Shown: piece by piece, positions 18,019 to 28,348 of the stretch
How positions within the stretch are numbered: the stretch's first letter is position 1
Layout: every line of letters starts with the position of its first letter
Source of the DNA: an uncultured Chthonomonas sp.
GTDB lineage: Bacteria; Armatimonadota; Chthonomonadetes; Chthonomonadales; CAJBBX01
DNA length: 41,197 nucleotides
Assembly (NCBI GenBank): GCA_903885605.1
Contig: CAISJD010000037.1
Location: forward strand, 1 to 41,197
Reading direction: 5' to 3'
Made by a program: the position numbers and the translations under genes
The notes under the pieces: model-generated
What the model saw: the letters and a program-made list of their open reading frames with translations, nothing else
The model's database searches: none
Told to the model about the DNA's origin: nothing

Positions 18019-20130
18019 ATGCGACGAGCGATCAGTCCCGCCCTCGCCCTGCTTCTCTGCGCCGGCCCCGGCCTGGCCCAGGGCCGCACGACGCCTGCCG
18101 CGCCGCCCTCGCCGCTGCCCGTGGCGCGCATCACGCTCTTCAACAGCGGCGTCTCCTACACCGAGCGGTCCGGCCAGGTGGAGGGCGACGCCACCGTGCC
18201 GCTCACCTTCCGCACGGCGCAGATCAACGACATCCTCAAGTCGATGGTGCTGCTGGACGCCGGGGGCAAGGTGCAGCCCGCCGTCTACGCGGCCAAGGAC
18301 CCGGTGAGCCACGCGCTCCGCTCCTTCGCCATCGATGTCACCGAGAACCTGGACCTCCGCACGCTGCTGGACCGGTTGCGCGGCGTGCTGCTCCGCGTTG
18401 ACGTCCGCGGACGCGCCGTGACGGGCCGCCTTGCGGGCGTCGAGCAGCGGCAGAACCCGCGCGACGCCCGGCAGCCCGTGGAGACCGTGGCCAACCTGCT
18501 GACGGACCGCGGCCTCGTCTCCGTGGCGGTCCAGACCGGCGGGCAGGTTCGCATCCTCGACGAGCGGCTGGACCAGGAGTTCCGCGACGCGCTGGCTCTC
18601 CTGGCCACCGGCAACGACGAGCAGCGCCGCCAGGTGACCCTTCGCTTCGCCGGCCAGGGCAAGCGGCAGGTGCGCGTCGGATACGTGACCGAGGCCCCGC
18701 TCTGGAAGATGAGCTACCGCCTGGTGCTGGGCGGCAAGGGCGACGCCAAGCCCTACCTGCAGGGATGGGCGCACGTGGAAAACACATCGGACGACGACTG
18801 GAACGGCGTGGCGCTCTCCCTCGTCTCCGGCAGGCCCGTCTCGTTCATCCAGGACCTCTACCAGCCGCTCTACCTGCCCCGACCCGTGGTAGGGCCCGAC
18901 GTGGTGGCCTCGGCCTATCCGCAGACGCATGGGTCCAACCTGCTGGAGGATAAGAAGCCCGCCGCGCCTCCGGTGGCCGGTGCGCCTGACAACGGTCCGG
19001 CCGGCCCCGGCGGAACGGGCGGCTTTGGCGGAGGCATGGGCGGTATGGGCGGCGGCGTGGCGCTCAAGCGCAGCGCAGGCAGGTCCGCGGCGCCGATGGC
19101 CGGCCGCGACATGGTCGAGAGCCTGAGCGACGCGGCGGCGGAGTCGGTCGAGGCGCAGGCCTCCGGGCAGCAGGCCGGGGAGCTCTTCAAGTACGACATC
19201 GCCACTCCCCTCACGCTGCCCCGGCAGCAGGCCGCCATGATCCCGGTCATCGCCGGCGGCGTCGACGCCGAGAAGGTGTCGATCTACAACGCCGACACAG
19301 GGCCCCGCTACCCGTTGAACGCCATCCGCATCAAGAACAACACGGGGCTGCACCTCAAGGGCGGGCCCATCACGGTCTTCGACGAGGAGACCTACGCCGG
19401 CGACGCCAAGATGGAGGATGTCCCCAAGGGCGACACGCGGTACATCTCCTACGCCGTCGATCTGAGCGTCGAGGGCGATCGGCGCGACCCGGGCGGCTCG
19501 GCGGAGGAGGTGACCTCCTTCCTGCGGCGCGGCGTCCTCACCTGCACCCGCACCGAAACGCGACGGACCGAGTACACGCTCAAGTCCCGCGCCGAGAAGC
19601 CCCGGACCGTCATCGTCGAGCAGCCGATCCTGCCCGAGTTCGCCCTGGCGGAACCGAAGGAGCCCTCCGAGCGAACCGGCGACCGCTATCGCTTCACCGT
19701 GACGCTGGAACCGGGCAAGAGCCAGACGCTCAAGGTGGTGGAGACGCGGCCGGTCTCCGAGGTGGTCGGCATCCTGGACGTGCCCATCGACCAGCTCACG
19801 CTCTGGGTCTCGCGCCCCTCCGTCGGCCCGAAGCTGAAGGCGGCGCTGGAGAAGATCGTGGCGTCCCGAGCCCGCGTGCGCGACCTTCAGGCGCAGGCGG
19901 CCGCCAAGGACGAGGAGATCAAGGGCATCACCGCCGACCAGGACCGCGTCCGCCAGAATATGCAGCAGCTGGACCGCAACTCCGACCTCTACAAGCGCTA
20001 CGTCAAGCAGCTCGATGAGCAGGAGACCCGGATGCAGACGCTGCGCACCGAGGCCGGCGCCCTGCGCAAGCAGGCCGGCGAGGCCGACCAGGCCCTGCGC
20101 GCCGAGATTGACGCGTTGAGCATCGACTGA
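18019..20130 (+). CDS. Exported DUF4139 domain protein
   Basis: Protein of 703 residues. The start is certain from AGGAGGATAACC directly before the ATG and a signal peptide ending PGLAQ. The N-terminal part (ARITLFNSGVSYTERSGQV) and the later VGYVTEAPLWKMSYRLVL, HVENTSDDDWNGVALSLVSG and the beta-rich second half fit DUF4139, an exported beta-domain protein family of uncertain role. A Gly/Met-rich flexible insert lies around residues 325-350, and a charged coiled coil fills about 610-700. It is monocistronic, bounded by a 14-base-pair hairpin downstream. Confidence 0.85.
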   Translation: MRRAISPALALLLCAGPGLAQGRTTPAAPPSPLPVARITLFNSGVSYTERSGQVEGDATVPLTFRTAQINDILKSMVLLDAGGKVQPAVYAAKDPVSHALRSFAIDVTENLDLRTLLDRLRGVLLRVDVRGRAVTGRLAGVEQRQNPRDARQPVETVANLLTDRGLVSVAVQTGGQVRILDERLDQEFRDALALLATGNDEQRRQVTLRFAGQGKRQVRVGYVTEAPLWKMSYRLVLGGKGDAKPYLQGWAHVENTSDDDWNGVALSLVSGRPVSFIQDLYQPLYLPRPVVGPDVVASAYPQTHGSNLLEDKKPAAPPVAGAPDNGPAGPGGTGGFGGGMGGMGGGVALKRSAGRSAAPMAGRDMVESLSDAAAESVEAQASGQQAGELFKYDIATPLTLPRQQAAMIPVIAGGVDAEKVSIYNADTGPRYPLNAIRIKNNTGLHLKGGPITVFDEETYAGDAKMEDVPKGDTRYISYAVDLSVEGDRRDPGGSAEEVTSFLRRGVLTCTRTETRRTEYTLKSRAEKPRTVIVEQPILPEFALAEPKEPSERTGDRYRFTVTLEPGKSQTLKVVETRPVSEVVGILDVPIDQLTLWVSRPSVGPKLKAALEKIVASRARVRDLQAQAAAKDEEIKGITADQDRVRQNMQQLDRNSDLYKRYVKQLDEQETRMQTLRTEAGALRKQAGEADQALRAEIDALSID

Positions 20131-20266: not shown

Positions 20267-21361
20267 ATGGAAGAGTTCAACGACCTCTCGCGCCGCCAGT
20301 TCATCCAGGCGAGCGCCGCGACCGGCCTGACGCTGGCGGCCTCCGCCGCACTCGGCAGCGATACCAACCCGCCCGCCGCCCGATCGACGCGCGGCTACAA
20401 CCCGGACATGGAGTACCGCCGGCTCGGCAACACCGGCCTCTGGCTCTCCGCAGTCTGCCTGGGCGGCCACTGGAAGCGGATCGACAAGATGATCGGCTCC
20501 CAGCCCATCGACCCCTACACGCTGCCCGATGCCTCCGTCATGGACGCGTTCCAGAAGAACCGCGACCAGATCATCGGCTGCTGCATCGACCACGGCATTA
20601 ACCTGGTCGACGCCTGCACCGGCGGCGAGATCCTCACCTACTCCCGCGCCCTCAAGGGCCGCCGCGACAAGATGTACATGACCTTCTCCTGGGCCGAGCG
20701 CGAGATCCGCGAGGAGCCCTACCGCAACGCCAAGGCCCTCCTCCGAGGCTTCGAGCAGGGCCTGAAGGAAGCCGGGCTGGAGTACGCCGACATCTGGCGC
20801 GTCACCTGCCTCGAGAAGGGCGGCCGCCACACCCAGGGCGAGGTCGAGGAGCTCGTCTCCGCGCTGGACATGGCCCGGAAGCAGGGCAAGGCGCGGGTCA
20901 CCGGCATCTCCTCGCACGACCGCCCGTGGCTCAAGATGATGATCGAGACCTACCCCAAGCAGATCCAGATGGTCCTCACGCCCTACACCGCCGACTCCGA
21001 GGAGATGCCCGAGGACAGCCTCTTCCAGTCGGCGCTCAAGCATAAGGTCGGCATCCTGGGCATCAAGCCCTTCGCCAGCAACTCGCTCTTCAAGGGCGAC
21101 GGCGCCGCCGACCACCCCGACGCCGCCGAGGACGACCGCCGCGCCCGCCTGGCCATCCGCAACATCCTCAGCAACCCGGCGCTCACCGCGCCCATGGCCG
21201 GCCTCACCAGCCCGCACCAGATCGCCAACGCCGCCGCCGCCATTCGCGAGCGCCGCGCACTGCACCCGCGCGAGAAGGCCGAGCTGAAGCAGGCCGGCGA
21301 GGAGATGTGGGCCAACCTGCCCGAGGACTACCAGTGGCTCAAGGAGTGGAAGTATGTCTAG
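20267..21361 (+). CDS. Tat-exported aldo/keto reductase-fold protein with degenerate active site
   Basis: Protein of 364 residues. The N-terminus LSRRQFIQASAATGLTLAASAALG is a twin-arginine signal, so the protein is folded before export. The rest follows the aldo/keto reductase (beta/alpha)8 pattern: EYRRLGNTGLWLSAVCLGG, INLVDACTGGE, ALKGRRDKMYM, LKEAGLEYADIWRV and GKARVTGISSH. By eye, the catalytic Asp is kept (residue 115) but the Tyr, Lys and His of the tetrad appear replaced by Gly120, Phe140 and Thr180, so ordinary NADPH-dependent carbonyl reduction is doubtful. No Fe-S cysteine cluster is present. Its stop overlaps the start of a tetraheme cytochrome c gene by eight bases, which suggests an electron-transfer pair outside the cytoplasm. 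A G-rich ribosome site precedes the ATG. Confidence 0.85.
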   Translation: MEEFNDLSRRQFIQASAATGLTLAASAALGSDTNPPAARSTRGYNPDMEYRRLGNTGLWLSAVCLGGHWKRIDKMIGSQPIDPYTLPDASVMDAFQKNRDQIIGCCIDHGINLVDACTGGEILTYSRALKGRRDKMYMTFSWAEREIREEPYRNAKALLRGFEQGLKEAGLEYADIWRVTCLEKGGRHTQGEVEELVSALDMARKQGKARVTGISSHDRPWLKMMIETYPKQIQMVLTPYTADSEEMPEDSLFQSALKHKVGILGIKPFASNSLFKGDGAADHPDAAEDDRRARLAIRNILSNPALTAPMAGLTSPHQIANAAAAIRERRALHPREKAELKQAGEEMWANLPEDYQWLKEWKYV

Positions 21362-21899
21362 CCGGCTCGGGGCCGCCGCGGCGCTGGCCGGGTTGCTCGC
21401 CCTGAGCTCGGCGGCGCTGAGCGGCCCACGGACCCCGGTTCGCAAGCCCGCGCCCAAGGCCAAGGTGTCGGCGAAGGTGGAGCCCGCCGACAACAGCTAC
21501 TGCTTCGCCTGCCACGTCAACTTCAAGCGGGAATTCCTGGCCGAAACGCACCGCAAGGCGGGGGTCGGCTGCGCGAAGTGCCACGGCGAGTCGGACAAGC
21601 ACAGCTCCGACGAGAACAACATCACGCCGCCGGACACCATGTACGCGCCGGAGCGGATCAATGCCGCATGCGCAGGTTGCCACACGCCCGCCAAGCTGGC
21701 CGCGGCGGGTGTCAAGAGGCCCAATCCGGCGCACAGGGCGCTCATCATGCCCGCCGCCGGGGGCGCGAAAGCCGCCATGCGCCCGTCGCCCACCTGCACC
21801 ACGTGCCACGGAAGCCACCGCCTGCCCGTTCGGACGCGGCGCTGGGACAAGACCACCCGCAAGCTCATCTCGGACGACGGGGTCCGGATGCTCAAGTAG
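21354..21899 (+). CDS. Exported tetraheme c-type cytochrome
   Basis: Protein of 181 residues with an N-terminal hydrophobic signal (residues 1-23) and four CxxCH heme-attachment motifs: CFACH at 50, CAKCH at 73, CAGCH at 106 and CTTCH at 148. Additional histidines (66, 83, 127, 155) could be distal ligands for bis-His hemes. It is similar in size to small NapC/cytochrome c554-like or c3-like electron carriers but has no membrane anchor beyond the signal. The ATG lies inside the end of the aldo/keto reductase-fold gene, so the two are translationally coupled and probably interact. A cytochrome c maturation system should exist elsewhere in the genome. Confidence 0.9.
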   Translation: MSSRLGAAAALAGLLALSSAALSGPRTPVRKPAPKAKVSAKVEPADNSYCFACHVNFKREFLAETHRKAGVGCAKCHGESDKHSSDENNITPPDTMYAPERINAACAGCHTPAKLAAAGVKRPNPAHRALIMPAAGGAKAAMRPSPTCTTCHGSHRLPVRTRRWDKTTRKLISDDGVRMLK

Positions 21900-21907
21900 G
21901 CCCGACC

Positions 21908-21941
21908 GGCGGCGGGGCTCTACTCCACGCGCTCCGCCGCC
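21908..21941. terminator. Bidirectional hairpin between convergent genes
   Basis: The 11-base arms at 21908-21918 and 21931-21941 pair with one G-T and a 12-base loop. It lies after the cytochrome stop; its right arm is in the last codons of the convergent UroD-like gene. No T-run on either side. Confidence 0.5.
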
Positions 21942-22909
21942 GCCCGGAACACATCGTAGGCCCAGCCATCCCACTCCGGCTCCACGCCGATGCCGTGCAG
22001 GTCGGGGTAGTCCTTGGCGATGAGCCGCCCCGCGAAGAGCCGCAGCATCTCCCGCGCCCCGCCCTCGATCAGCGCGCGGTCGCCCGTGGGCATCACCTTC
22101 TGGATGTCCACCGGCGCGTGCAGCGCCAGCCCCAGCTCCCGGAAGCGCCCCGAGAGCGCCTCCAGGCCGCAGAGCGCGGGCTGGTCGAACTGCATGGCGC
22201 TGACGCCCACCTCCGCCAGGTCGGGCAGAATCTCCCAGACCCAGCCGCAGGAGTGCATGATGACGTGCATCCCCCGCGTGCGCGCCGCGCCGCAGAGCCG
22301 GGCGAAGTGCGGCTTGTAGAGACGCCGGAACATGGCGGGGCTGATGAGCAGGCGGTTCTGGACGCCCCAATCCTCGCAGAAGAAGATGCCGTCGGCTCCG
22401 GCGTCGGCCAGCCGGATGATGACCCGTTCCAGCAGGTCCGCCACCATGCCGTGGAGCCGCTCGATGAGCTCCGGATCGGTGGCCAGGTCCTGGAAGTAGA
22501 CCTCCATCTTGCGCAGGTAGCGGCAGATGGCGAAGGGGAAGCCCGGCAGCCAGCCCATGCGGAACCGCTCGCCCTCGGCGGCGAAGGCGGCGCGCGCGGC
22601 CTCGTAGCGCTCCGGCGCGTCCAGGTCCGGCAGGCGGTAGGTCTCCAGTGCGGCCCAGTCGGCCAGTGCCGGGGTGTGGACCTCGCCGCCCGACGACATA
22701 CCCACCAGCCGGTGCCAGAGGTTGCCCCACTCGTCGTCGTAGTACTCCACGCCGCCGTCGGTCCAGCGCCGCGGCGTCCAGGAGCCCGAGGCCGAGGCCC
22801 CGCCGCCGGTGAAGTCGTTCCACCGCCCGCCGGAGAAGTTCATGCCGATGCGGGGCGCATCCCGCCCCTCCAGGTTCCGCCGAATGATCTCGCGAGGTGT
22901 CATGTCCAT
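21920..22909 (-). CDS. Uroporphyrinogen decarboxylase/MtaA-like family protein
   Basis: Cytoplasmic protein of 329 residues from the UroD-like superfamily. Recognisable parts are the N-terminal TPREIIRRNLEGRDAPRIG, the ADGIFFCEDWGVQNRLLISP segment, and VIMHSCGWVWEILPDLAEVG. That H-x-C-G is the zinc ligand pair of corrinoid-type methyltransferases such as MtaA, not a feature of true HemE. The third Zn-ligand Cys expected near the C-terminus is not visible. The start is the ATG at 22909 (another at 22903) without a clear ribosome site. Related proteins are abundant next to sugar-degradation genes in Armatimonadota-like and Planctomycetes-like genomes, with unknown substrates. True heme biosynthesis is unlikely. 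Confidence 0.82.
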   Translation of the reverse strand: MDMTPREIIRRNLEGRDAPRIGMNFSGGRWNDFTGGGASASGSWTPRRWTDGGVEYYDDEWGNLWHRLVGMSSGGEVHTPALADWAALETYRLPDLDAPERYEAARAAFAAEGERFRMGWLPGFPFAICRYLRKMEVYFQDLATDPELIERLHGMVADLLERVIIRLADAGADGIFFCEDWGVQNRLLISPAMFRRLYKPHFARLCGAARTRGMHVIMHSCGWVWEILPDLAEVGVSAMQFDQPALCGLEALSGRFRELGLALHAPVDIQKVMPTGDRALIEGGAREMLRLFAGRLIAKDYPDLHGIGVEPEWDGWAYDVFRAAAERVE

Positions 22910-23012
22910 AGTGGCGTTAGGTTCGCCGCGAGGCCAGTGGAGTTCCTGCAAAGGGTCGGCGGCGGTGGTTGGTCGGCGGGCGCCGTGCGACGGATGCAGG
23001 ACTGAGCTCGCG

Positions 23013-23939
23013 CTATCGCAGGAATCGCTCGTCCATGTGCCGCTCTAAGTACTCCGGCGCCGGCCTCAACGCCTCGTCGCTGGGCAGCGATCTGAGCAAG
23101 TGGCCGTGATGCGCGTAGTACACCCGACCGTTCAGGTAGTTGTCCTTGATCTGCCGACTGATCTGGACCCGGTAGTCGGGAGTGATGCCGACCAGGCCCT
23201 GATCGAAGAGGATGTGCAGATCGGCGCGCAGGAGCAAGCCGTTGTCCAAGGCATGCTGACCACCGTCGGCCACCGGCACGATGTGGGCAGCCTGAAGCAC
23301 CGGCAGCGTGGTCTCACCCGTGATGCTGCACCTGCGGTCGTAGTTCTCAAGCGTCAGGATACGAAACGCCCCTTGGCCGAGCCGCGCCTGTTGCAGATAT
23401 GGGGTGCCGAACGCCACATCGTACTCGGCGCGCACCGAGGCGACACGCACCGAACCGGCCCGCGCCTGCACCGCATCCTGCCAGAGCGCTTGGCCCGTGG
23501 GGTCGGCCGTGTCGTAGCCCTTCCCCTGCACGATGTTCGGCGCCCAGTCGGCGGGGGCGGGCACGAAGTCACGATCCTTCAGGAAGAAGGGCTCCGCCAG
23601 GATCATGCAGCCGATATCTGGGTCCTCGCCCGGGCCGATGGACGCCGAGCGGTACTTGCTGATGAGCGTCCGGAGGTGAGCCAAGCTCTCAGTTCCGTTC
23701 ATTTCGCGGAAGGCTGACCACGCTAGCGACACTGGTAGTCGGGAGTAGCGAACGAAGGTCCCGCCGCCGATGATCGGCCCCGGCCGTCCGCCTCGCGAGT
23801 GGGCCTTGAATAGGAACTGGGTCCCGGCCTGTAGCTTGGACGGGGTCGTGCCGGGCCGCCAGAAGTTAACCTCCTCGGGTCGACGCTCCCGCAAGAACGC
23901 GAACCAGCGCTCATCAGTGAGTGCCACGTAGAAGCGCAT
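23013..23939 (-). CDS. HNH endonuclease with EVE/ASCH-like N-terminal domain
   Basis: Protein of 308 residues; the start at 23939 has GAGGAG seven bases upstream. The N-terminal half (MRFYVALTDERWFAFL, EVNFWRPGTTPSKL, FLFKAH, GGGTFVRYSRLPVSLAW) resembles the PUA/ASCH/EVE-like domain that reads modified bases in modification-dependent restriction enzymes; this part is recognised by pattern only. The C-terminal half is a clear HNH nuclease: CSITGE, then His219 in AAHIVP, Asn233 in LDNGLLL and His242 in ADLHILFD. It most likely cuts DNA carrying a modified base, a type IV-like restriction role. It diverges from the ATPase-led operon, and together they form an accessory island. Confidence 0.82.
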   Translation of the reverse strand: MRFYVALTDERWFAFLRERRPEEVNFWRPGTTPSKLQAGTQFLFKAHSRGGRPGPIIGGGTFVRYSRLPVSLAWSAFREMNGTESLAHLRTLISKYRSASIGPGEDPDIGCMILAEPFFLKDRDFVPAPADWAPNIVQGKGYDTADPTGQALWQDAVQARAGSVRVASVRAEYDVAFGTPYLQQARLGQGAFRILTLENYDRRCSITGETTLPVLQAAHIVPVADGGQHALDNGLLLRADLHILFDQGLVGITPDYRVQISRQIKDNYLNGRVYYAHHGHLLRSLPSDEALRPAPEYLERHMDERFLR

Positions 23940-24291: not shown

Positions 24292-24409
24292 AGCCGGCAG
24301 GGCAGAGCGCGGGCCAATGGCGCCATGGCTGTAAGGGCCATGAGACACCTGGGCGACGAGGTGCTGAAGGTGTTTCGGGTTGCGCCCCCGGGCGGGTAGG
24401 AGGTCACGG

Positions 24410-25633
24410 ATGGCACGTATTGAGGGCATTCGCATCCAGAACTTCCGTGTGTTGCGGGATGTCACGCTGGGTAAGCTCTCGCATGAGCAAGGCGCCGAGC
24501 CGTTGACACCATTGACCGTCGTGATCGGTCGCAACGGTTGCGGGAAGACCACGCTCTTTGATGCGTTCGGCTTCCTCAGCGACTGCCTGAACAGCGGAGT
24601 CGAAGCTGCGTGCGACATGCAGCAGCGCGGCGGCTTTGATCGGCTTGTGTCGCGAGGAAGCTCCGGTCCAATTCGCTTCGAGGTCTACTACCGCGAGGGT
24701 CCGCAAGAGCGGCCGATATCCTATGAACTCTCCATTGGACTGGACAGATCAAGCAGGCCCTATGTTGAGGCGGAAGTGCTCAGGCAGCGTAGGAAGGGTG
24801 AATCACATGGCAGGCCGTTCGCATTCCTAAGGCTGGACCGTGGCAAGGGCACGGTGTGGTCAGGGTCAGAGGCCGTTGAGTCGGGCACAGAAGATGCAGG
24901 CAGCCAGCCTGTGGAGCTGACGGACCCGAGACAGCTCGGCATCGCCACGCTCGGGACGCTGCGGGAGCACCCACGGATAACGAGATTTCGAGACTTCCTA
25001 AAAGGCTGGTATCTATCATATTTTGCAGCAGGCTCTGTCCGCCACCTGGCTCCATCGGGACCGCAGTTGCATCTGAACGTCCATGGGGACAATATGGCAA
25101 ACGTCGTTCAGTTTATGGAACGGGAGTATCCAGGACGGTTCAGGCAGATACTGGCGCTGATCGCCACCAAGATTCCTGGGGTTGAGCGGATCGAGACCAA
25201 GGTCACCGACGACAAGCGGATACTGCTGAGGTTCAATGACGGCTCGTACCAAGATCCGTTCGTGGCGCAGCAGATGTCTGATGGAACGCTCAAGATGTTC
25301 GCATATTTGCTCATGCTGGAGGACCCGAGCCCACCCCCGTTCATCTGCATCGAGGAGCCGGAGAACGGCCTGTACCACAAGCTGCTGGCCGCACTTGGCG
25401 GCGAGTTCCGCGAGTTTGCAGTGCGACATGGCGGCCCGCAGATGCTCGTTACCACCCATCAGCCGCACTTCGTCAACGCCCTGAGCCCGGGTGAGGTCTG
25501 GTTGCTGCACAAGGGCGACGACGGGTTCGCTAGGGCACTGCGCGCCTCCGACCTGCCACTGGTGCGGAACCTGGTCGCCGAGGGGCTGGAGCTTGGCGGG
25601 CTCTGGTTCAGCGAGTACTTGGAGCCGATGTAG
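24410..25633 (+). CDS. AAA/ABC-type ATPase of the OLD/RecF group (defence operon gene 1)
   Basis: Protein of 407 residues; the ATG at 24410 has AGGAGG six bases upstream. It opens with GIRIQNFRVLRDVTL, typical of RecF/SMC-like and OLD-type ATPases. Walker A is GRNGCGKT (40-47), the ABC-signature-like element is QMSDGTLKMFAYLLML, Walker B is FICIEEPENG with Glu315/316, and the H-loop is LVTTHQPHFVNAL. There is no fused TOPRIM nuclease domain, unlike GajA or OLD proteins; instead a TOPRIM-like DUF4276 gene starts two bases after the stop. This gene looks visibly less GC-rich than its neighbours (for instance around 25000-25030), which suggests horizontal acquisition. It probably powers or senses for the downstream nuclease-like partner, as in PARIS or Gabija. 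Confidence 0.9.
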   Translation: MARIEGIRIQNFRVLRDVTLGKLSHEQGAEPLTPLTVVIGRNGCGKTTLFDAFGFLSDCLNSGVEAACDMQQRGGFDRLVSRGSSGPIRFEVYYREGPQERPISYELSIGLDRSSRPYVEAEVLRQRRKGESHGRPFAFLRLDRGKGTVWSGSEAVESGTEDAGSQPVELTDPRQLGIATLGTLREHPRITRFRDFLKGWYLSYFAAGSVRHLAPSGPQLHLNVHGDNMANVVQFMEREYPGRFRQILALIATKIPGVERIETKVTDDKRILLRFNDGSYQDPFVAQQMSDGTLKMFAYLLMLEDPSPPPFICIEEPENGLYHKLLAALGGEFREFAVRHGGPQMLVTTHQPHFVNALSPGEVWLLHKGDDGFARALRASDLPLVRNLVAEGLELGGLWFSEYLEPM

Positions 25634-25635
25634 CC

Positions 25636-26294
25636 GTGCACATCGAGTTTCTTGTCGAAGATGCGTCGGGCAAGGCGCTTCTTGAGGCGCTCCTGCCGCG
25701 GCTACTCACGGCGGGGGAGGCAGGCACTTCGTACCGCATCCATGCATATATAAGGGCCTCGGGGCCTTTCCGAAGGGCCTGAGCCAGCCTCGGGACGCCC
25801 GTAAGCGCCACCTGCTCGCGCAGCTTCCGAAACTCCTTGGTGGCTATGCGGCGACCCCTGGCATAGACGCGGTTGTGGTCGTGCTGGACCTGCTCGGGGA
25901 CGACTGCGTTGCTTTCCGCCGGCAACTTGAGCGCGTCGCTGAGGATGCAGGGCTCCCAGGCACGCTCTTCCGGATAGCCATCGAGGAGGTCGAGGCCTGG
26001 TACCTGGGCGATCGCGAGGCACTGGCCCTGGCATACACCAGGTTCAGGTCCAAGGCCCTGGTGGACCACGAGCAGGACAGCTTGGGCGGAACCTGGGAGC
26101 GCCTAGCCGAGGCCGTGTATGACGGCGGCGCTCGGCCTCTCGTGAGGGCCGGGTACGCCGCCATCGGTCTGGCAAAGGCCGAGTGGGCCCGCGCCATCGG
26201 ACCGCACATGGCCATGGACCGGAACGCCTCCGCAAGCTTCTGCAAGTTCCGCGACGGCATCAGGCGGCTACTCGCGACCGCGAGCACTCCATGA
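25636..26294 (+). pseudogene. DUF4276 (TOPRIM-like) protein, frameshifted by a 2-bp AT expansion
   Basis: The frame from the GTG at 25636 reads VHIEFLVEDASGKALLEALL, the conserved DUF4276 opening with a TOPRIM-like Glu, up to YRIHAY. It then hits a TGA at about 25780. The minus-one frame picks up exactly at that point as KGLGAFPKGLSQPRDARKR. It continues to VVVVLDLLGDDCVAF (acidic TOPRIM-like cluster), FRIAIEEVEAWYLGD, DSLGGTWERLAEAV, IGPHMAMDRNASASF and FRDGIRRL, all family hallmarks. Removing one AT from TATATAAG at 25747-25754 restores a single 218-residue frame, the usual family length. Stop TGA overlaps the helicase ATG (ATGA, 26291-26294). It is either a true lesion, a sequencing error or a recoding site. 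Domain identity is confident; TOPRIM relationship is from knowledge of the family. Confidence 0.85.
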
Positions 26295-28348
26295 GGTCTC
26301 GGGTCACGGACACCCTTACGCAGAGCCTGGCGGAGTTGGACCCCAAGTTCCGCAAGGCGGCATAGGCCACGGCCTTCGAGCTGCAGATGGACCCGAGCGG
26401 CGCCGGGATGAGCTTCCACCGGCTCGATAAGGTGCGCGACAAGCGCTTCTGGTCGGTGCGGGTGAACAGCGATGTGCGGCTCATCGTCCACCGCACGGAC
26501 GGTTGCCTCATGCTCTGCTACGTGGACCATCACGACCTCGCCTACCGCTGGGCCGAGCGCCGCGTGCTGGAGAACCACCCCGTGACCGGCGCCGCGCAGT
26601 TCGTGGAGGTCTGCGAGCGCATCGAGGAGGTGGTGGTACCCAGCTTCGTGCCGGCGCCTCCCGCCCCGAAGCCCAAGGCCCTGGCCCATGTGTCGGACGC
26701 CGACCTGCTGGCCCACGGCGTGCCGGAGGACTGGCTGGAAGCCGTGCGGCAAGCCGACGAGGAGACGATCCTCGACGTGGCACAGCATCTGCCCGCCGAG
26801 GCGGCAGAAGCGGTGCTGCAGTGGAGCACCCACTCGCAACCCGACCCGCCCGCCGAGCCGACCGATGGCGACGGCTTTGCGCACCCGGACGCCCAACGAC
26901 GGTTCCGCCTGGTAGCCACGCAGGAGGAACTGCAGGCTGCCCTGGACGCGCCCTGGCTTGCCTGGACCGTCTTCCTGCACCCTGCCCAGCGCGCCTGCGT
27001 GGAGAAGGCCTACAACGGGCCCGCCCGCATATCGGGCTCGGCCGGCACCGGCAAGACGGTAGTGGCGCTGCACCGCGCCGCCCACCTTGCCCGGCGGCAC
27101 GAACAGGCCGAGGTGCTGCTCACCACCTTCTCCGACGCGTTGGCGCACCTCCTGCGTCGGCACCTCGGCACGCTGCTGGCGCAGGAACCGCGTGTTGCGG
27201 AGCGTATTACCGTGCGCCCGCTGGACGCCGTAGCCGAACGGCTTTACGGCGCCGTGCTGGGCCCGTGCGCCCTGGCGCCGGCCGCCGACGTGGAGCGCTT
27301 CGCCGCCGAAGCGGTGTCGGCCTCACCGGGCTGCACGTTCAGCGCCGGCTTCGTTATGGCCGAATGGCTGGAGGTGGTGGATGCCCAGCGCATCATCGAC
27401 TGGGATGGCTACCGGTCGGCCAACCGGCGCGGGCGGCGCATCCGGCTGACGGAGGCCCAGCGCGGGGCCTGCTGGGACGCGCTGTCACAGATCAACGGCC
27501 GCATGGCCGCCTCGGGGATCATCACCAGGTCCGGCCTCTACGCGGCTCTGGCGCACCACTTCCGAACCGGTAGATCGCCATACGAGTACGTGGTGGTCGA
27601 CGAGGCCCAGGATGTCAGCGCCGCCCAACTCCGGTTTCTCGCAGCACTGGTGGGCAACCGCCCCGATGGGCTCTTCTTCGCAGGCGACCTGGGCCAGCGC
27701 ATCTTCCAGAGGCCTTTCTCGTGGTCCGAGCAGGGCGTCGAAGTCCGAGGGCGATCGAGGACGCTGCGCGTGAACTACCGGACCTCGCACCAGATACGGG
27801 CGCAGGCCGACCGGCTACTGGACCCTGAACTGCGCGATGTGGACGGCAATGCCGAGAGCCGCGACGGCACGGTCTCGGTCTTCCAGGGGCCGGCGCCGCA
27901 CGTGGAGGTCCACGCCACCGCTGACGAGGAGCGCGACGCGGTGGCCGCCTGGCTGGGCGAATTGCCGGCCGGCGGCATCGGCCCCGGCGAGGTGGGGCTC
28001 TTCGTGCGAACGGCGGCGCAGATCGGTCGGGCTGAGGCCGCCGCGGCGCAGGCAGGGCTACCCTACGTGGTGCTCGATGAGCGGGTTGAGATACCCGAGG
28101 AGCGTGCGGTCATCTGCACCATGCACCTGGCCAAGGGCCTTGAGTACCGCGCCGTGGCTGTGATGGCCTGCGACCAGGATGTGCTCCCCGATTCCGAACG
28201 CCTTGGCGCCGCCGCCGATGAGTCCGATCTGGACGAGGCCTACAACGGCGAGCGCCGCCTGCTCTACGTCGCCTGCACCCGTGCACGGGACCGGCTCCTG
28301 GTCACTGCCGTTGCGCCCGGCTCGGAGTACCTGGAAGACATGCGGTAG
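26291..28348 (+). pseudogene. RelE-fold/UvrD-like SF1 helicase interrupted by an in-frame TAG
   Basis: The complete frame from the ATG at 26291 encodes MRSRVTDTLTQSLAELDPK..RKAA, then TAG at 26363-26365, then ATAFELQMDPSGAG onward without a break to 28348. The downstream part alone is open from the ATG at 26387 (653 residues). Helicase motifs are complete: Walker A SGSAGTGKT, DEAQD, FAGDLGQRIF, LRVNYRTS, TMHLAKGLEY and LLYVACTRARDR. The N-terminal about 100 residues (FWSVRVNSDVRLIVHR, LCYVDHHDLAYRWAERR) are the RelE/ParE-fold cap seen in a known group of UvrD-like helicases. The TAG falls where homologs usually carry Lys, so a single AAG-to-TAG change explains it. Restart at 26387 would lose the first RelE helices. 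It plays the GajB-like role in the operon. Confidence 0.85.

Follow-up and report, generated by a model that had tools for sequence, protein, structure and literature searches.

A tetrad-less, exported aldo/keto reductase-fold protein linked to a tetraheme cytochrome, and its possible role in periplasmic sugar oxidation

Dependence on NAD(P)H is a textbook property of the aldo/keto reductase (AKR) superfamily. What, then, can an AKR-fold protein do once it is exported, stripped of its catalytic tetrad and encoded beside a multiheme cytochrome? The question is raised by two genes in a stretch of 41,197 nucleotides (the window) from an uncultured Chthonomonas sp., lying on contig 37 of a 5.6 Mb genome. 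The first gene (20267..21361, + strand, as are all features of the pair below) codes for a Tat-exported AKR-fold protein of 364 residues (Pfam PF00248 Aldo_ket_red, E 6.6e-11). The second (21354..21899) codes for an exported tetraheme cytochrome c of 181 residues (PF13435 Cytochrome_C554, 3.7e-8; PF14537 Cytochrom_c3_2, 2.1e-6). The two genes overlap by 8 nt (21354..21361), and a Shine-Dalgarno sequence for the cytochrome, AAGGAG (21341..21346), sits within the AKR gene, seven bases ahead of the cytochrome start. Overlap and AAGGAG are identical in two sister species (L024, L025), close Armatimonadota MAGs labelled Chthonomonas sp. and Armatimonadetes bacterium, with an AKR identity of 95-96%.

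A sequence-only reading of this DNA had given the coordinates, the eight-base overlap, the Tat export and the tetraheme nature of the cytochrome; coordinates, overlap, Tat signal and the four CXXCH motifs all proved exact. It had also described the two proteins as fused in expression, and this stands in the sense of a probable operon. AKR and cytochrome are nowhere joined in one natural chain among the loci. A 649-residue heme frame in L017, considered as such a fusion, was rejected: it overlaps the AKR gene in another reading frame.

On the same strand, 136 bp upstream of the pair, lies a gene for a 703-residue DUF4139/MuiA-like protein with a Gly-rich stretch (18019-20130, +). A gene of the DUF4139 type is syntenic in the sister species, and it could be co-transcribed with the pair. 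Downstream and convergent with the pair is a URO-D/MtaA-like methyltransferase gene (21920-22951, -), which keeps this position in both sister species; genes of its cluster also occur near another copy in L125. Further on, an AAA_21 ATPase (24380-25633, +) and a DUF4276 protein (about 25875-26294, +) are matched by PADLOC as HEC-01A (E 1.4e-178) and HEC-01B (3.6e-41), respectively, and make a candidate anti-phage system. A UvrD-like helicase gene (26387-28348) follows this candidate pair, which is adjoined by an HNH_2 endonuclease gene (23013-23939, -) with a PADLOC HNH/type II restriction-like match.

Export and fold of the first protein are clear. Its twin-arginine signal, SRRQFIQ (20267..20356), scores 22.2 bits with TIGR01409 (cut-off 16.7), the Pfam TAT_signal match being under its own cut-off. 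R9, R10 and F12 of the signal are invariant in 31 relatives (alignment A2). The AlphaFold2 model (pLDDT 87) is an AKR (β/α)8 barrel; in Foldseek and VIA comparisons it matches AKRs best (Z about 26 over 271 residues). The nearest solved folds are L-galactose dehydrogenase (7svq) and YghZ/AKR14A1 (4aub), and the top-ranking structures belong to sugar dehydrogenases that depend on NAD(P). The exported AKR fold proposed from the sequence is thus borne out by the Tat profile, by PF00248 above its cut-off and by the structure model.

We then placed the 31 family members of A2 in one alignment beside 25 ordinary AKRs, chosen by phmmer from five genomes that also hold the family. The ordinary proteins carry the tetrad as expected of a control: Asp, Tyr and Lys in 25/25 each and His in 23/25. 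In the family, the Asp is the sole tetrad residue kept (Asp115, 20609..20611; 31/31). All 31 have a gap in the Tyr column, the Lys position holds Ser (22), Asp (6) or Ala (3), and the His is found in 0/31. Tyr is left without a counterpart because its loop (20615..20626 in the window) is shortened by deletion, by 3-4 residues in all family members. The earlier reading had therefore seen correctly that Asp115 is kept and that Thr180 (20804..20806) takes the His position; its Gly120 for Tyr is not a simple substitution, and its Phe140 for Lys gives way to Ser141 (20687..20689) once ordinary AKRs are included. The alignment could have recovered Tyr, Lys and His at the active site, as that reading had foreseen for its own refutation, and did not. 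The 31 members form a single clade (support 100/100), and the tetrad has been lost in reality and across a whole protein family. A second unusual group, on its own branch of the tree, consists of tandem AKRs in L142 and L157 (G296:C105) that keep Tyr and Lys but whose His is displaced when aligned (YYGYH, YYAFH).

Invariant residues in A2 include His68 of the motif GGHWKR at the end of strand 1 (20468..20470; not in the ordinary AKRs shown), Arg178, two residues ahead of the His position (20798..20800; 31/31), Ser215, His217 of SSHD (20915..20917), Pro239, and Lys267 of IKPF at the end of strand 7 (21065..21067). His217 is common to the Ser-x-His subclass of AKRs and Lys267 also occurs in an ordinary-AKR subclass, so that, of these residues, just His68 and Arg178 are peculiar to the family. 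Four of the invariant polar residues, His68, Arg178, His217 and Lys267, lie at the active-site strand ends of the AKR barrel, which makes it less likely that the protein is purely a substrate-binding partner, one of two roles first suggested for it. With the Ser-x-His AKRs, 7svq and 4aub, the family has in common the barrel, the Asp, the Ser-x-His and a C-terminal nucleotide-loop signature. It differs from them by the absent Tyr, Lys and His, the shortened Tyr loop, the new invariant His68 and Arg178, a C-terminal LPxxYxWLxxW motif and the linked cytochrome. One member of this subclass (L003) is an ordinary Tat-type AKR of the same genome with its tetrad intact; export alone does not account for the loss.

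The partner is a c554-like cytochrome with four heme motifs: CFACH (21501..21515; invariant in alignment A3 and 46 relatives), CAKCH (21570..21584), CAGCH (21669..21683) and CTTCH (21795..21809), the last three conserved in relatives, with the third being CX4CH in L117 and L118. PF13435 scores 34.6 bits (cut-off 20.8), and there is also a Paired_CXXCH_1 match. Pfam finds no membrane-anchored NapC/NirT domain in the window cytochrome, and its structure model is weak (pLDDT 69). Three more His (His66, His83 and His155) and an Asp-Glu pair (D86 E87) are invariant in the family, the three His being candidate axial heme ligands. The window cytochrome resembles the c554, NrfB and c7-like proteins in its four hemes and in its PF13435 and PF14537 matches, both above cut-off. 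The family cytochrome departs from them by its own pattern (H66, H83, D86 E87, H155) and by its repeated fusion to sugar-cleaving domains.

The AKR family was found in 11/291 Armatimonadota genomes, in at least 12/392 sampled Planctomycetota genomes (with the best five candidates per genome scored) and in 1/195 Omnitrophota genomes, often in several copies per genome. To measure linkage we used 53 loci from 25 genomes, with 58 AKR genes followed by enough downstream sequence. Apart from the single-contig genome G467, the relatives all come from metagenome or draft assemblies, and their genes were called by a simple, seeded codon-usage caller written for the analysis. A family cytochrome lies at most four genes downstream of the AKR in 46/58 cases, all on the same strand; it is the next gene in 38 of these 46 pairs and overlaps the AKR gene in 7. 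A family cytochrome is present in all 25 genomes, linked to the AKR in 24 and unlinked in G535. The window genome has one of each, side by side. Co-occurrence had been proposed as a check on the pairing, which passed it. Homologs without the cytochrome had been named as what would refute the earlier reading: they exist as 12/58 genes lacking an adjacent copy, and among these 25 genomes do not exist at the level of genomes. The two proteins have also diverged together (r 0.59 between AKR and cytochrome distances over 39 pairs). Swapping the cytochromes among paralogues within genomes did not reach this value in 5000 trials (maximum 0.51); such paralogue-specific co-divergence suggests direct contact of AKR and cytochrome. 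As far as sequences can tell, a functional tie between the two is supported. In three loci (L123, 4035-6950; L124, 7411-10291; L107, 6353-10887), two or three tandem family AKR paralogues precede a single tetraheme gene, a hint that the AKR may be heteromeric or that one cytochrome may serve several substrates.

The nature of the substrate is hinted at by fusions of the cytochrome. A 3-keto-disaccharide hydrolase domain stands N-terminal to the heme part in L105, L111, L112 and L113, and after it in L117 and L118. In L094 (4411-5673) the fused domain is ThuA (PF06283, 2.6e-31), and in L110 it is NapC/NirT (PF03264, 2.2e-24). The fusion domains are Pfam-confirmed in L117, L094 and L110; the others were recognised by a profile built in the analysis. 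L013 looks by eye like another hydrolase-heme fusion, and the tetraheme-ThuA architecture of L094 could serve to find more members.

Neighbouring genes point the same way. Stand-alone 3-keto-hydrolase genes occupy 10 of 290 neighbour slots, where the mean genome density would predict 1.3 and the highest 2.4. PF01261-type (sugar-isomerase-like) proteins occur in 15 loci and Gfo/Idh/MocA genes in 11; both kinds, like DUF1080 genes, are numerous in these genomes, and their background in these phyla is probably high; the background comparison covered DUF1080. ThuA genes are also present in some loci. Roughly half of the loci lack a 3-keto gene at a distance of up to four genes; the window's own locus is one of them, with the pair only and no sugar or 3-keto genes. 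Across the examined loci, no third enzyme is conserved alongside AKR and cytochrome. By eye, from the N-termini of the proteins, aldehyde ferredoxin oxidoreductase-like genes stand beside AKR-cytochrome pairs in two genomes (L183, 11470-13317; L188, 1419-3296).

Known systems offer a frame for this context. The LacABC dehydrogenase is a GMC flavoprotein with its own cytochrome subunit and is not an AKR; the candidate enzyme of our family matches AKR profiles and folds only. In Caulobacter, a DUF1080 protein encoded near this lactose 3-dehydrogenase is a proposed periplasmic hydrolase of 3'-ketolactose (PMC9007349). LacABC and glucoside 3-dehydrogenase resemble our system in periplasmic glycoside oxidation, a membrane-bound enzyme and nearby DUF1080 hydrolases (PMC9007349). 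In Agrobacterium, C3-oxidised glycosides are cut by an eliminase and, on preliminary evidence, by a hydratase. Both carry the annotation of sugar phosphate isomerases, and a Gfo-type enzyme reduces the product (PMC10628242). That operon combines a C3 dehydrogenase with two proteins resembling isomerases and a reductase of the Gfo type, gene types like those around our pair; its dehydrogenase, however, is a flavoenzyme, and the passages covered mention neither an AKR nor a tetraheme cytochrome (PMC10628242). In the openly licensed literature searched we found no description of such an AKR-cytochrome pair.

AKR and cytochrome are constant across loci; the rest varies. In the most economical reading, the AKR would deal with the substrate and the cytochrome with the electrons, sugar C3 oxidation being the likely reaction. 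We give slightly less than an even chance to the view that the pair is a periplasmic, cytochrome-coupled sugar oxidation module feeding a 3-keto-glycoside pathway. Tat would export the AKR-fold protein in a folded state. Its barrel would bind and oxidise a sugar or glycoside, with a rebuilt site (Asp115, His68, Arg178, His217 and Lys267) replacing the AKR tetrad and with either no redox cofactor or a preloaded NAD or flavin. The tetraheme cytochrome would accept the electrons and relay them; in one relative or more, the fused NapC/NirT domain would lead them towards the quinone pool. The product, likely a 3-keto sugar, would be cut by 3-keto-disaccharide hydrolases, ThuA-type or sugar-isomerase-like proteins; alternatively, it might be reduced by Gfo/Idh/MocA enzymes. 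From sequence and gene context we infer that the AKR may be catalytic, that it would oxidise rather than reduce, and that C3 of the sugar may be the site. A bolder form of this view, which we advance tentatively and consider rather unlikely in full, is that of a new class of heme-coupled AKR sugar dehydrogenase: it would have given up nicotinamide, as the earlier reading had also proposed, along with the tetrad, built a different active site and passed electrons from sugar directly to the tetraheme cytochrome, opening a 3-keto-glycoside pathway in Planctomycetota and Armatimonadota.

It is possible, but improbable, that the AKR-fold protein is not a redox enzyme at all and instead binds, epimerises or eliminates a sugar, the electrons being supplied by a different dehydrogenase, for example an exported protein of the Gfo/Idh/MocA type. 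The catalytic residues are all gone save Asp115, the reactions of the TIM-barrel proteins in the context (PF01261) are non-redox, and 11 loci have Gfo/Idh/MocA genes. Yet the invariant core is the AKR and the cytochrome, alone in the window locus, and their co-divergence suggests that they touch each other.

The direction of electron flow is a further point, and one on which the NapC fusion counts against oxidation. NapC/NirT proteins typically pass electrons from quinol to periplasmic reductases, as would fit an AKR-fold protein that reduces a periplasmic substrate, for example a keto sugar, with electrons received from quinol via NapC-like and tetraheme cytochromes. The pairing data are compatible with either direction, and the fusion in L110 by itself points to exchange with the quinone pool, not to its direction. 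We nonetheless find reverse flow unlikely: the enzymes encoded nearby or fused to the cytochrome work on 3-keto products, as would follow an oxidation step, and the NapC-type cM552 of nitrifiers, with c554 as its donor, is thought to run the opposite way, towards quinone.

Could the nicotinamide have been retained? In glucose-fructose oxidoreductase, NAD(P) stays tightly bound through Tat export, and our protein might likewise take up its nucleotide in the cytoplasm, with the cytochrome or a second substrate serving to reoxidise it. Its Tat signal is invariant in 31/31, its closest structures are NAD(P)-dependent, and part of the nucleotide-binding signature is kept (Ser215 and the C-terminal PG...Q..N loop), which makes a tightly bound NAD(P) possible. 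Other contact positions are replaced in the alignment, with Pro239 and Ile266 mapping to where many AKRs contact nicotinamide. Tyr, Lys and His are gone, and direct hydride-to-heme transfer would be chemically unusual; we regard this explanation as doubtful. The view that AKR and cytochrome are mere neighbours, brought together by chance or by needs of transport and with no function in common, finds a footing in the 12/58 AKR genes without an adjacent cytochrome and is refuted, to near certainty, by within-genome co-divergence, by pairing in two phyla and by linkage in 41/51 loci against an expected 0.3-0.6% per gene, a rate from which we quote no significance since the loci are related and the counts not independent.

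The sugar oxidation module thus stays our preferred reading. The 3-keto-glycoside pathway requires an oxidant for its first step, a role for which the pair is a candidate. A testable class of substrates is suggested by the 3-keto-sugar context and the fusions, which the sequence-only reading had missed, and both proteins are small and testable in E. coli. If the reading is true, the AKR fold would serve electron transfer outside the cytoplasm, in a monophyletic, exported and repeatedly duplicated branch of the superfamily, and sugar breakdown in these bacteria would be linked directly to respiration.
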